From positions 1 through 64,000 of the forward strand of contig JAJDAT010000030.1 of NCBI GenBank assembly GCA_029261715.1: a stretch of 64,000 bases of DNA, given 5' to 3'. This document shows positions 36,224 through 42,399 of this stretch, piece by piece. Source of the DNA: Nitrospinia bacterium. GTDB lineage: Bacteria; Nitrospinota; Nitrospinia; Nitrospinales; JAJDAT01. Within the stretch, counting starts at the first letter, position 1. Every line of letters starts with the position of its first letter. The translations under genes were made by a program, and so were the position numbers. Below the pieces are notes generated by a model, which was given only the letters and a program-made list of their open reading frames with translations, did not search any database and had not been told where the DNA came from.

Positions 36224-36724
36224 TTAATTTAGCTTATTCCACCAGTGTCCCCATTTTACCGAAGCGATCTTTTCGCTGAAAGCTGGAGAAGCCTTATAAT
36301 AGTATTGATAGTCGCCGTATCCATCTTTACCTTCTACAGTTTGCCAACCTCCTTGTTTAAGATTATTTAAATCCTTAAGCCATATTCTTTTATCGTTTGT
36401 CTTGCGGACGATCAAATATCCCCAATCTATCCTGTAATCTGGATTTCCAAACAGAGTAACTAACGTGTTTGAGGGTCCATCCAAAGTAAATGTGTAACCA
36501 CCATTACAATAAAAATAAACAAAATCTCTAAGAGAAGAGTAATTCTTTTCCCCATCCACACTGAACAAACCATTACAACGGCTACGAGCGGGATAGAAAT
36601 TAAAGTTGTCTGCAAAAAAAGGAGCTTTGTATAAGGTTAGCTCTACCTTCTCTTTACTGGCAAAAACGAATGAAGGAACTAATAAAGTCGAAATTACTAT
36701 GAAAGTCCAAATTTTAGATTTCAT
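36224..36724 (-). CDS. hypothetical secreted protein
   Basis: 166 aa with a signal peptide (1-22, 'LVPSFVFASKE'). The mature part is aromatic-rich, beta-type: 'ELTLYKAPFFADNFNFYPARSRCNGLFSV', 'FVYFYCNGGYTFTLDGPSNTLVTLFGNPDYRIDWGYLIVRK', 'WKGHWWNKLN'-like end. Two cysteines could form a disulfide. No family recognised. Seven bases upstream of the radical SAM start, so it may be the first gene of that transcript; 252 bases separate it from the giant NTPase gene upstream. Confidence 0.7.
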   Translation of the reverse strand: MKSKIWTFIVISTLLVPSFVFASKEKVELTLYKAPFFADNFNFYPARSRCNGLFSVDGEKNYSSLRDFVYFYCNGGYTFTLDGPSNTLVTLFGNPDYRIDWGYLIVRKTNDKRIWLKDLNNLKQGGWQTVEGKDGYGDYQYYYKASPAFSEKIASVKWGHWWNKLN

Positions 36725-36976: not shown

Positions 36977-39900
36977 CTAATTTTCCCATTTTTCCTTTAA
37001 ATTAAATTGCGTATTTTCAATAATTCTGCGGTGAATATACGCTGAAGGGGAAAACATTTGGTTCATTGTCCACTCCATCAAAAATTGAGGATCTTCAAAA
37101 TCGTCATCAATATAATACTTTGTTTTTATAATATTTCGACGGGCCTTATTGGTCGGATCGCCGTTATTTTCTACTTCGCGAAATAAATGAATCGCTCGAC
37201 TTTTTATATATTCATAATCAATAAAATGAGCTGGAATTTTGCGCCATAATTTTGGTTGAATTTGCTTTTGAACTTCCTTTTCGGCATTTCTAATTTCAGC
37301 ACTTCTTTTTTCCACATCTTCTATATTAAGATTTCTAATTTCAATTCTTTTTTGTTTAGAATAATCTCGAACTGGGAACTCTAATTCAAACTGGATTAAG
37401 TCGTACAACAATTCCCATAAGTTATAGTAAATCAAAAATTTAGGAACAATCACTAAACCTTGATTATTACCAGAAATCAACTGGACTGTTTGCGAAGCCC
37501 AATAATAGTTTCTAACTGCCTTAGTTGCATTCCACCAATATTCTTTATCCAAATCATCAGTTTGCTTATTTTTAAACTTAAAAACCGCGTCTCTAATATT
37601 ACTACTTAAAAACCGCGCATCTTGCCATAAGGCCATTGCCCTATTTTGAGCGGAGTATGGAGGCATATAAGTATTATCAATAGGGATCAGTTTAATTTCT
37701 GAAGAATTGTCCAAATTAAGTTTTTCAGACAAGCTTTTTAAAATAGATCTCCGAAAATTATCCTCCCAAAAACTAGTGATCAATACATTTTGCCCTAGAA
37801 GAGAACGAAACCAAAAAGCGGTCTCTTGACGCTTTTTAACTTGAGAATCTCCTTCGTTCTTGAATAAATACTTAAAAGGATCACGGACTATTTGTATTTG
37901 AAATCTTTCGTATTCTTGTGTATCTATGTTTCCAGGATTTTCATCAACAAGGTTATCCTCAAAAGCTTCACCGAGGTCTTTATTTAAATACCTCAATAGA
38001 AAAACTCCAAAAGCTCCATGATAAAGACGACTGATTCCCTTCCAAGCTTCATTTCTAACCACTTCAATCCATTTTTCATTTAACTTAAGATTTTCTAATA
38101 ACTTTTCATACTTGTCTCTTAAATCATCTTGTTGTTCATTTTTAATAAGAAAAGATTCAATAGCTCGCCTTGGAAACATTTCTAGAAACATAGCCCATAA
38201 TGAAATAACTTTAAAGTTAACCCTAGTCTCATAATCGTCTAATCCCAATTCTTTAAATTTTTGAGACGACTTAAGCAATAAAGCCAAAATATCTAGAAAT
38301 TTAATATCTTTAAAATCATGTTCAATATTTAGTAGAGGCAGACCGATATCAAATTGTTTTCTTTTTTTTAATAGCTTAGAAATAACTTCATCACACTTAA
38401 TAGTTTTCATCAGCGAATCAATATTAGTACAATTATTTAACTCAGGACAACTTCTCAAATCTACAAAATCATTAAATTTATTCAGGAAAAAAGAATACTC
38501 TTTTTCCAAAGATCTAGAGGGACTCTTGATTTCTTTAAATAATGTCTTCAGATTTCCAACCAATAGAGATTCGGCAAAACTAAATAGGCTAACCGCTTCC
38601 CAAAACCCGCAACTTTCTCTCTCAGAGTTTTTGTTATTTTGAGCATAATGATAAGCCCGGCTAAAGAATCTGAGTGCGGAAGAAGTTTGATTAAGAAAAA
38701 AAGCTAATCGACCACGTCGAGCCCATGTAGCAGGTTTATCATCCAAAACATCCTCAAATTTTTTGGGAAAAACAATCTTTATACTGTGATCTCCAGCTCC
38801 ATGTTTTAACGCAAGATACGCGCGACAAATAAATGGTTGAAGTAATATGTTCCATTTAGAATCTCCAGATTTGATGTAATTTAGCAATCCACCATTTTCC
38901 TTTTTCCGAAAATCAGATTTAACCCATCGGTTTACTATTTGACACCCTCTTTCATATAAGGCCATTGCAGTTTTGTAATTGTGCCGCCTTTCATGTAAAT
39001 TGGCCAACTTGAGGATTGTAATAAGAAAAATATTTAACTCTTGTGGGTCGCTTTTTTCATCTGGTTCAATGACGTTTTTTTCGCATAATTGTTGAGTTCT
39101 TCGAAAATATTCTGCCGCCTGGTCATAGTTTTCTTCAAAGAAATAGAAATTACCCAAAATACCTCTTAATACCGCAGACGTAGATTGATCTTCTTTCTCT
39201 TTTTCGCTTGTTTTACCCTCATGGACCAAGCTTTTATAATGCCGTTTGACTTTTTCTGCCGCAGCCATAGAAAAATTGAAGGAAGAAGACTCTAAATCAC
39301 TTACACGAGTAACATAACGAATTTCTCTTTCAAATCCAGTGACAAATCTATAGCGCAAAAAACCATTTCGGATATGACGAACAAATGGTTTTAAAACTAC
39401 TTCTAATAGAGAAGAAACAATATCATCAAGATGTGGAGAGCTATGGATGTTGATCGCTTCGACCATCCTTTCAAGGTATCTACGAGAAAACCCTCTTTTG
39501 TGGAACTTCAATATATAATGTAAAGCGCCTAATGCAGTCACCTTCAATTTATCGTCCCCCGAAGACAATCTTCTTCCTAAATGGTGCTCTAGAGGAATAT
39601 AAATATTAGCGGCTAATAGAATTCTTTGGTGATCTAAAAATCCAATTTTTAGCATAAATCGTGTGGTAGAACGAACTGGAGGAACGGTTAAATTATTTTT
39701 CAATTCTATTGGAGAAAACGAAGTAACAAAATCTTCAAACACAGTATTCAATCGCTTAAAATTTCCCCAAGTGTGAAAACTTAAATACAAAATAAATTGT
39801 CTTAAGGTTAAAATAATGTACTTTGCTTCCTCTCTAAGTTTAGGGTTCTTGTCAAACCCTATTTCAAGAAGATACCGATAATAAATATTTAACTGGAATG

Positions 39901-42145
39901 GCCTGTAAACTAAATCCGAATCATTTAGTTTAGCTTCGTTAATTGCATCATTTTCAGTTTCATTAGTCTTTTCCCCAGGTTCTATTTGTTCGTCTTCTTG
40001 AGAAACTTTTTTACCAGAAACGCTATTCGATTTACTTTGACTGCCATAATATTTATCCCAAAGATAACGTGCAGTATCCATCTCCATCAACCTTCGACAA
40101 ACAAAAACCTCGATCATGTTGTCGAGTCGACTTCCTCCCAAACCATCGGAATCGTCTGTCAACAGAGAAGGAATTTCAAAAACTCTGGTAAAAAGACTCT
40201 CGTACAATAAACTTGAGCTATCCTGATCGGCATACCAACTATCTAACATCTCTCTTCCTGCTATAAAAATAAATCTAGCTTGACCCAAAGTAATTAAATT
40301 TTTTAAGGTTCCTAACAAGACGTCAATCTCTTTTTTTCTTTCATATATATCTTCCGAAATTTCTTTAAACTTTCCGGTATCGGAGCTAGAATCTTCTTTT
40401 GCAATTTTATCTAACTCATCAAACACGAAAATAATGTCAGGACGGATAAATGGAACCGGGACAAAATATTTTCTACAATCTTCCAATATTTTCAACAACT
40501 CACTTTCCAATTGTCGCTCGTCCAATGGTAGCTGAGCTCGCGACCACTTTAAAGAAAACCATCTAGGACCTGCGTTGCCGTCAACTTTATGGGAATAAAT
40601 CATTCTAGAGTAGAGTTTTTCAATGCGCCTTAATGTCCTGTATTCTGTCGGCAACAACCTTGAATTCAAAAAATCAATCAAAACCATACAAAACAAATAA
40701 ACCAAAACAAAATAAATCGACTCGACATAATTTATGGACCAAAAAAAACCACTTAGTATTAATCCAATACCAAACTTGACCCAGTCGCCAATAAATCCAT
40801 CCGTTGAAAAATCCAAACGAGGAGTCTTCTCAATAAATTTTTCCAAATATTCAAATAAATAAGACAGTATTTGATGACTCGTTGAATAGAATGATTTTGT
40901 AAGATGAGAAAAAGAACCGCAACTTGAAAATGTTTCAGAACAAACAAAACTATTTTTTAGTTCCTCAGCAACTTTCAAATGTAAATCTTCGAAAAGAAAA
41001 AATTGATAATGGCTTATTAGAGAAGCCACAAAAATAAGCCCTACCCAATATAAAATTCTTCGAAAAATATGTTTTACACAGCCCCTCAATTCATCGCGCA
41101 ACAAACTAACAATATTAAAAAGAACTTTATCGGATAGCAAAGGTTGAAAACTTAAATTGACTTTCACTAAAACAACAGGGCGAATTATTCTCTTAATACA
41201 ATTTAAAAATTGGAAATGATCAATCCCATGTCTAAGCCATAAATGCTTAACCACACATCTAATAAAAACACACATAAAAATAACAAGCCAAATCCAAGAA
41301 AATGGAAGAAAAATCCCAAGAATTAAAGGACCAATAAAAACTTGGCAAATCCATTGGGCCAATCCTTGATGAGGGTCAAAGTAATCAAAAAAACCAATAA
41401 CCTTTGAAGAAGGTAGTTTAGTTTTAGATTGCTCTCGATAAATATCTCTTTCAATTTTCAGTTTATTTTCATTGGCGTTTTTGAAGTTTTCAGTTTTTAT
41501 ATTTTCAAATATAGAAACTTTTTCGAGAAAAACCGCTTCCCATAACCCACGCAAAAACTTTAGTTTTAAAACATAAATAATAGCTCTTAAACTCCAGAGT
41601 AAGTAACGAGTCCCAAAGCCTAGCAAACTTATTTTTTGGTTCTTTTTTGAAGAGTCATTAGAATTATTACAATCACTTTTTTTTTCTAAAAATTCGTATT
41701 TATTCAACATCCATTTCCAAGGTCTCTCAACTATTGACTTTGGAATCAAGAATGAAAAAATATTTTTTAGAACATTCAACAAAACCATCAATATTTTAAA
41801 AATTCTTACCGAAATCGATCTAAAAACTTTTATAAGTAAAACCATCCACTTAGGGAGACTTGAACTCCCTTTAATGTAATAATCTAATACCTTTTCAACA
41901 GCTTTAGTCTTACCCACGCCACGATAACCTGAAATCAGATAACTCCCGCTGCTAAATCTTGAATTACGTAGAATTTCGTGGAATTCGTTTATAAATTTAT
42001 CTCTTCCAACAAAAAGCTGGTCTTGGGGTTGATGTAATAAAGAACCATAGGAAAGTTTGTATGCATTCAATGGAACAGTAACAGTTAAATGATCAATTAT
42101 AGGAGATTCTGCTTTTTCCCCCTCTGGATTAGTTTTATCTGCCAT
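36977..42145 (-). CDS. giant membrane P-loop NTPase with TPR-like C-terminal half
   Basis: 1722 aa from the ATG at 42145 (GAGG six bases upstream; a TTG four codons earlier is rejected). 'QDQLFVGRDKFINEFHEIL' precedes Walker A 'SGYRGVGKTK' at about 73-81. Walker B 'IIFVFDELDKI' is at about 573-579, so some 500 residues are inserted, with hydrophobic segments near 100-135, 180-195, 265-300, 365-385 and 455-495. 'FIFIAGREMLDSW' follows as a sensor-like strand. From about 1010, helical repeats resemble TPRs ('LGNFYFFEENYDQAAEYFRR', 'LANLHERRHNYKTAMALYERG'). The insertion of membrane segments into the NTPase core recalls KAP-type NTPases; a STAND-like sensor or defence role is possible but unproven. 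Confidence 0.8.
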   Translation of the reverse strand: MADKTNPEGEKAESPIIDHLTVTVPLNAYKLSYGSLLHQPQDQLFVGRDKFINEFHEILRNSRFSSGSYLISGYRGVGKTKAVEKVLDYYIKGSSSLPKWMVLLIKVFRSISVRIFKILMVLLNVLKNIFSFLIPKSIVERPWKWMLNKYEFLEKKSDCNNSNDSSKKNQKISLLGFGTRYLLWSLRAIIYVLKLKFLRGLWEAVFLEKVSIFENIKTENFKNANENKLKIERDIYREQSKTKLPSSKVIGFFDYFDPHQGLAQWICQVFIGPLILGIFLPFSWIWLVIFMCVFIRCVVKHLWLRHGIDHFQFLNCIKRIIRPVVLVKVNLSFQPLLSDKVLFNIVSLLRDELRGCVKHIFRRILYWVGLIFVASLISHYQFFLFEDLHLKVAEELKNSFVCSETFSSCGSFSHLTKSFYSTSHQILSYLFEYLEKFIEKTPRLDFSTDGFIGDWVKFGIGLILSGFFWSINYVESIYFVLVYLFCMVLIDFLNSRLLPTEYRTLRRIEKLYSRMIYSHKVDGNAGPRWFSLKWSRAQLPLDERQLESELLKILEDCRKYFVPVPFIRPDIIFVFDELDKIAKEDSSSDTGKFKEISEDIYERKKEIDVLLGTLKNLITLGQARFIFIAGREMLDSWYADQDSSSLLYESLFTRVFEIPSLLTDDSDGLGGSRLDNMIEVFVCRRLMEMDTARYLWDKYYGSQSKSNSVSGKKVSQEDEQIEPGEKTNETENDAINEAKLNDSDLVYRPFQLNIYYRYLLEIGFDKNPKLREEAKYIILTLRQFILYLSFHTWGNFKRLNTVFEDFVTSFSPIELKNNLTVPPVRSTTRFMLKIGFLDHQRILLAANIYIPLEHHLGRRLSSGDDKLKVTALGALHYILKFHKRGFSRRYLERMVEAINIHSSPHLDDIVSSLLEVVLKPFVRHIRNGFLRYRFVTGFEREIRYVTRVSDLESSSFNFSMAAAEKVKRHYKSLVHEGKTSEKEKEDQSTSAVLRGILGNFYFFEENYDQAAEYFRRTQQLCEKNVIEPDEKSDPQELNIFLITILKLANLHERRHNYKTAMALYERGCQIVNRWVKSDFRKKENGGLLNYIKSGDSKWNILLQPFICRAYLALKHGAGDHSIKIVFPKKFEDVLDDKPATWARRGRLAFFLNQTSSALRFFSRAYHYAQNNKNSERESCGFWEAVSLFSFAESLLVGNLKTLFKEIKSPSRSLEKEYSFFLNKFNDFVDLRSCPELNNCTNIDSLMKTIKCDEVISKLLKKRKQFDIGLPLLNIEHDFKDIKFLDILALLLKSSQKFKELGLDDYETRVNFKVISLWAMFLEMFPRRAIESFLIKNEQQDDLRDKYEKLLENLKLNEKWIEVVRNEAWKGISRLYHGAFGVFLLRYLNKDLGEAFEDNLVDENPGNIDTQEYERFQIQIVRDPFKYLFKNEGDSQVKKRQETAFWFRSLLGQNVLITSFWEDNFRRSILKSLSEKLNLDNSSEIKLIPIDNTYMPPYSAQNRAMALWQDARFLSSNIRDAVFKFKNKQTDDLDKEYWWNATKAVRNYYWASQTVQLISGNNQGLVIVPKFLIYYNLWELLYDLIQFELEFPVRDYSKQKRIEIRNLNIEDVEKRSAEIRNAEKEVQKQIQPKLWRKIPAHFIDYEYIKSRAIHLFREVENNGDPTNKARRNIIKTKYYIDDDFEDPQFLMEWTMNQMFSPSAYIHRRIIENTQFNLKEKWEN

Positions 42146-42399
42146 TTTCCGCCTCAAAAAACTGCTATATTTTTTCGCATTTAATACTTTTTTTTAAATA
42201 TAAAAACTTAAAAACAGGCCATTCCCCTGAGAATACTGAACAAAAATCAGTTAGAGCAAAAACTCTAACTATACTACAGATCCTTCAGCACAAAACTTCA
42301 GAAACAATAATATTGTTAAATCGAAAATTATTTCAGAAAATAAATAGATTGTCAATTTGTTGTCGGAATAACGAATTAACTGAAGGTAAAATCCATGCG

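Follow-up and report, generated by a model that had tools for sequence, protein, structure and literature searches.

A predicted membrane-embedded P-loop NTPase of KAP/AAA_16-like kind, with two membrane inserts and a TPR-like C-terminal half, in Nitrospinota

What kind of protein holds its Walker A and Walker B motifs hundreds of residues apart, with predicted membrane segments in between, and continues into a large helical-repeat half, and what use might a bacterium have for it? A gene in the window, by which we mean the whole analysed stretch of 64,000 nucleotides (contig JAJDAT010000030.1), raises this question. Its source is a marine bacterium of the Nitrospinota. The gene is present as a single copy in its own genome, whose order has Nitrospinaceae relatives.

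Layout of the gene and its membrane inserts

The gene is a single uninterrupted open reading frame on the reverse strand (36977-42145 (-), 1,722 aa), with the stop codon at 36977-36979 and the ATG at 42145 as the likely start. Its features are given here with the evidence for each in brackets; two proteins serve as references, L011, a full-length relative from another Nitrospinaceae MAG, and P0003, a shorter plasmid-encoded protein.

42327-42355 (-): TG-extended sigma-70-like promoter, 11/12 to consensus, between the gene and divergent gltX (consensus match only; the whole scan was not above chance)
36977-42145 (-): whole gene, predicted membrane-embedded P-loop NTPase whose C-terminal half is TPR-like (reading frame and full-length relative L011)
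41867-42055 (-): conserved N-terminal block, aa 31-93, closing with the Walker A helix (70% identity to L011; AAA_16 match)
41906-41929 (-): Walker A, GYRGVGKT, aa 73-80 (YRGxGKT invariant in L011 and P0003)
41186-41866 (-): insert 1, aa 94-320, fast-evolving predicted membrane segments, including a hairpin at aa 262-299 (25% identity to L011)
41075-41185 (-): core strand-helix separating inserts 1 and 2, aa 321-357, VVLVKVNLSFQPL...VLFNIVSLLRDEL (68% identity to L011; its own separate profile match)
40655-41074 (-): insert 2, aa 358-497, predicted TM segments at aa 362-380 and aa 475-493, in KAP-type position (hydrophobicity scan; 29% identity to L011)
40403-40429 (-): Walker B, FVFDELDKI, aa 573-581 (F..DE.DKI kept in L011 and P0003)
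40247-40273 (-): sensor-1-like strand FIFIAGREM, aa 625-633 (alignment; strand also in a low-confidence model)
39728-39775 (-): HTWGNFKRLNTVFEDF, aa 791-806, like the C-terminal NPRxxKRxxN motif of KAP proteins (resemblance by inspection only)
38021-39265 (-): TPR-like helical repeats, about aa 961-1375 (Pfam TPR matches; Foldseek on a model)
37046-37165 (-): C-terminal block, aa 1661-1700, KTKYYIDDDFEDPQFLMEWTMNQMFSPSA, the most highly conserved of all stretches (88% identity to L011)

The earlier note had described a 500-residue membrane insert between Walker A and Walker B. The two motifs are indeed 492 residues apart, with predicted hydrophobic TM segments in between, but the membrane part consists of two inserts and not one, because the conserved core strand-helix (aa 321-357) sits between them. 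Between the window protein and L011 the inserts are 25-29% identical, compared with 60-75% for most core blocks. Insert 1 contains weaker hydrophobic segments beyond its hairpin, and the hydrophobicity scan leaves its TM count ambiguous, giving 3 candidates for the window protein versus 5 for L011. In insert 2, a simple hydrophobicity scan gave a weaker third candidate TM (aa 456-474) in addition to the predicted TM pair, which carries basic residues on its outer sides; the loop, presumed to be extracytoplasmic, contains Cys402 and Cys409, with Cys 394 and 402 as their counterpart in L011. Between insert 2 and Walker B runs a soluble linker, conserved at 60% identity to L011 (aa 498-570). Further downstream, WGNFKRLN (aa 793-800) is similar to the KAP NPRxxKRxxN motif with its register off by one residue.

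L011, encoded by MAG OFTM91 (genome G054), aligns to aa 6-1715 of the window protein at ~49% identity; its frame is interrupted once, near L011:8845, which may be a fault of the assembly or a true lesion. Blockwise identity is 66% from Walker B to sensor 1, 74% over aa 641-690, 75% over aa 851-960 and 58% in the TPR region. The great length and odd architecture of the protein, in an assembly fragmented into 52 contigs, might suggest unrelated genes joined as a chimera in one contig. We consider such an artefact exceedingly improbable, as an independent MAG has the same block order over aa 6-1715, the frame of the window NTPase is free of stops, and the flanks of the gene are syntenic with relatives. 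The fusion of NTPase and tail is therefore genuine, as shown by a full-length relative in another Nitrospinaceae MAG, the comparison covering two full-length sequences.

That the second half is a large helical-repeat region, as had been noticed beforehand, was borne out. In the native protein TPR_14 scored 24.6 bits, over its cut-off of 23.5, and Foldseek matched a low-confidence model of aa 855-1722 (pLDDT 44.4, better around aa 1155-1375) to TPR superhelices such as LGN (E 2.5e-4). A search of the sequence against solved structures returned designed TPRs and chance matches, and nothing else. Five genomes considered as carriers (G037, G057, G059, G060 and G064) were rejected, their matches being confined to the TPR region at aa 958-1037, and the one of these hits that was read (L004) is a plain TPR protein.

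A ten-pair stem-loop with a T-run behind it (42248-42271 (-)) lies in the 5' leader, downstream of the best promoter-like site and ahead of the start codon; judged by its sequence, it is a possible attenuator candidate. Terminator-like sites in the region of the gene numbered 8, versus 3.0 expected.

Relationship to KAP and AAA_16 proteins

AAA_16 (PF13191) was the top Pfam match, both for the native sequence (E 3.5e-5, 24.8 bits) and with the inserts removed (E 1.2e-6, 29.6 bits), in each case below the cut-off of 32.6. KAP_NTPase (PF07693) gave no match to the native sequence and matched the insert-free core at 14.0 bits (E 0.03), below its cut-off of 20. With a profile of the two full-length sequences, hhalign returned a probability of 80.5% for AAA_16 and of 33.9% for the KAP alignment of the phylum, the latter over 64 columns around Walker A, while shuffled and reversed controls gave <1%. 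Moreover, neither the native protein (searched at E up to 1) nor its core without inserts (E up to 10) matched any family of PADLOC-DB 2.0.0, which includes PifA and QatA. The same genome encodes three classical KAP proteins, and these do match PADLOC PifA/QatA, at E 1e-11 to 1e-31. Their genes are L027 (contig C20), L028 (C1) and L029 (C25), and the C-terminal region of L027 reads, by inspection, like a formylglycine-generating/SUMF-type domain. A structure model of the N-terminal aa 1-950 had a mean pLDDT of 32.7 and was discarded; Foldseek was applied to the C-terminal model only.

KAP proteins are defined as a family by TM segments placed within their P-loop domain, according to the title of Aravind et al. 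2004 as cited in PMC11846954, and the window protein has such an insertion upstream of Walker B in the form of insert 2. This insert follows the strand at aa 325-332 and precedes Walker B, and the TM segments of P0003 and of two KAP proteins of the phylum with a recognisable WFNAW-type strand motif (L023 and L038) are placed likewise; KAP proteins L037, L039, L040 and L041 also have TM segments between Walker A and Walker B. Conversely, the DDLDR Walker B and the WFNAW-type strand motif of KAP are absent from the window protein, which has FDELDK and VKVNLSF instead.

P0003 (WP_171779233.1, 774 aa, 'ATP-binding protein') was found with the insert-free core at E 8e-3. Its gene lies at L014:5878-8202 on the Priestia megaterium plasmid pFDU301C, and the protein exceeds both Pfam cut-offs (KAP_NTPase, 26.2 versus 20; AAA_16, 34.6 versus 32.6) and aligns with the KAP alignment of the phylum over 300 columns (hhalign, 93.5%). 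Queried with either the complete protein or its core, plasmids, phages and viral contigs yielded P0003 as the sole relative; a Phaeobacter candidate (H2) turned out to be an unrelated PHP-ATPase. Among the plasmids in the collection, pFDU301C alone has a compact NTPase core of this type.

It is possible, at somewhat less than an even chance, that an AAA_16/STAND lineage gained membrane inserts independently, in which case the likeness to KAP would be convergent. AAA_16 as the best profile throughout, the DELDK Walker B in place of DDLDR and the missing WFNAW-type motif all fit such a descent. P0003, however, argues against it by aligning with KAP proteins of the phylum and passing the Pfam KAP model, by containing YRGVGKT and F.xDELDKI as the window protein does, and by having its TM segments in the KAP position. 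We describe the window protein as KAP/AAA_16-like and stop short of counting it among the KAP proteins, because the cut-offs were missed, the hhalign match to KAP is limited to Walker A and PADLOC was blank.

The "KAP/STAND-type" label of the earlier note is the best lead, in view of the top AAA_16 match, the weak KAP match, P0003 as a bridge and the accessory spread of the gene, although neither Pfam cut-off was reached. Its further remark, that it knew of no described family exactly like this protein, was not supported, as it overlooks that membrane segments inside the P-loop domain are already a hallmark of KAP proteins, Tmn included (PMC11846954). Going by sequence, insert 1 is what the window protein has in addition to KAP, and the protein appears to resemble KAP/STAND signalling ATPases while fitting none of the catalogued families.

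Distribution and genomic setting

The NTPase occurs in two of the 77 Nitrospinota genomes (G000 and G054), a rarity that applies within the phylum; the wider genome scan was by exact 8-residue patterns only. The gene order in the window is ABC_ATPase, radical SAM, small secreted protein, NTPase and divergent gltX, with dnaK also nearby. Defence islands, which the earlier note had suggested looking for, did not appear: the window neighbourhood holds gltX, radical SAM and dnaK instead of defence genes. The secreted-protein gene and gltX adjoin in G006, 663 bp apart and without the NTPase, and in most relatives the gltX-adjacent slot holds a two-component pair (histidine kinase and response regulator), small secreted proteins, or both. 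In four loci running from the radical SAM or secreted-protein gene to gltX, from several families of the order (L098, L102, L103 and L105), the pair is a histidine kinase with a LuxR/NarL-type regulator, and the small secreted proteins in the slot are all of one family. The small secreted-looking protein of the window (36224-36724 (-)) has no Pfam match; several relatives keep it beside their radical SAM gene, and G002 has it in duplicate.

In G054 the NTPase relative lies within a 13.9-kb insertion that separates an ABC gene from a TPR gene; these two are adjacent, with the insertion absent, in G001, G016 and G018. The same slot in G036 carries a different 3.7-kb insertion with a PHP-ATPase similar to PADLOC PDC-M49A (E 2e-32), and G052 has a Sll1717-family-like P-loop ATPase near that same TPR gene; the slot may be a defence hotspot. 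The PDC-M49A-like gene has a small overlapping ORF downstream, and these two accessory ATPases of sister genomes, in the slot that G054 fills with the NTPase relative, lie at L127:10091-12542 and L126:13510-15645.

The NTPase is an accessory gene, as indicated by its presence in 2/77 genomes, by a GC3 of 0.269 that is the lowest among the 14 genes compared in the neighbourhood, and by the existence, for both loci, of relatives whose site is empty. This status is consistent with horizontal acquisition and would suit a gene for conflict or signalling. No integration signature was seen, in that the window has no tRNA and no Rfam family and only short imperfect repeats surround the gene.

Possible function and known systems

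We hypothesize, with roughly even confidence, that the window protein is a KAP/STAND-like membrane sensor ATPase used in defence or stress response, a reading held at this level on account of its analogy with Tmn and the accessory-slot evidence. It would be a P-loop NTPase of the KAP/AAA_16 (STAND-like) type, embedded in the membrane, encoded as a stand-alone gene and acquired horizontally; NTPase and tail are probably cytoplasmic, and the inserts would form helical hairpins with a small extracytoplasmic loop. The TPR-like tail and the near-invariant C-terminal block may sense a ligand or partner, and ATP binding would change the oligomeric state. Because the membrane helices emerge from the NTPase core to either side of a single strand, this change might reach the membrane in the form of a pore, a depolarisation or a transmembrane signal, and the likeliest use would be an anti-phage or stress response, as for Tmn. 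The motifs and core kept in L011, the shorter, single-insert form in P0003, the KAP position of insert 2, the fast evolution of both inserts, the TPR signals, the accessory status and the defence candidate in the G036 slot speak for this reading. The missed Pfam cut-offs for the NTPase domain, the blank PADLOC result, the restriction of the hhalign KAP match to the Walker A region, the poor N-terminal model, the window neighbourhood free of defence genes, the two-component and secreted-protein genes in its slot in most relatives and the ambiguous TM count of insert 1 speak against it.

The main rival to a defence or stress role is a membrane signalling or scaffold NTPase with no part in defence, whose TPR tail would recruit cytoplasmic partners and whose NTPase would act as a switch, as proposed for Kidins220. 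The lone position of the gene amid housekeeping genes, the histidine kinase and response regulator (sensing genes) in the same slot of most relatives, the large TPR tail and the two Cys residues that both full-length proteins have in their presumed extracytoplasmic loop are in keeping with signalling. Yet a core signalling protein would not be expected in so few genomes, with empty sites in relatives, and a phage-defence candidate occupies the slot of L011 in the sister genome G036; we find a purely signalling role less likely than one in defence or stress response. Less probable still is that the protein founds an undescribed family of STAND/KAP-like immune ATPases embedded in the membrane, in which helices flanking one core strand would let nucleotide-driven core motion move the membrane bundle directly, with phage recognition by the TPR tail as the trigger. 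Since the question of KAP or AAA_16 lineage is separate from that of defence or signalling, our confidences in these readings do not sum to one.

Tmn is presented in PMC11846954 as a phage-blocking KAP-family NTPase with two transmembrane domains, whose defence mechanism is described there as unexplored. A divergent relative that has two membrane inserts and a large, sensor-like tail could probe whether the NTPase drives membrane helices directly. More generally, the window NTPase would widen the search space for such proteins, because both the Pfam KAP model and PADLOC miss it.

Among known proteins, P0003 shares with the window protein GYRGVGKT, the K.N strand, F.xDELDKI, G.A.FI..G.E, IPxL and a TM insert at the insert-2 position, but it has neither insert 1 nor the TPR tail, ends in a different C-terminus and is ~26% identical over the matched parts. 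KAP proteins (PF07693; Tmn, PifA, QatA), some of which are anti-phage, are likewise single large proteins with TM segments between Walker A and Walker B at the insert-2 position. Unlike them, the window protein carries a further membrane insert immediately behind its Walker A helix, and its C-terminal half is TPR-like; it fails the Pfam KAP cut-off and all PADLOC models, and has DELDK in place of DDLDR with WFNAW missing. In AAA_16/STAND NTPases with TPR sensor domains, such as those of Avs-like architecture, the repeats have been proposed to sense. The window protein has the same succession of an AAA_16-like P-loop and C-terminal helical repeats, whereas it carries membrane inserts in its NTPase and an N-terminal effector domain was not found in it. 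Kidins220/ARMS is a eukaryotic KAP protein proposed to act as a membrane switch or scaffold; its repeats are ankyrin repeats at the N-terminus, but, likened by description only, it too combines TM segments inside an NTPase with helical repeats in one large protein.
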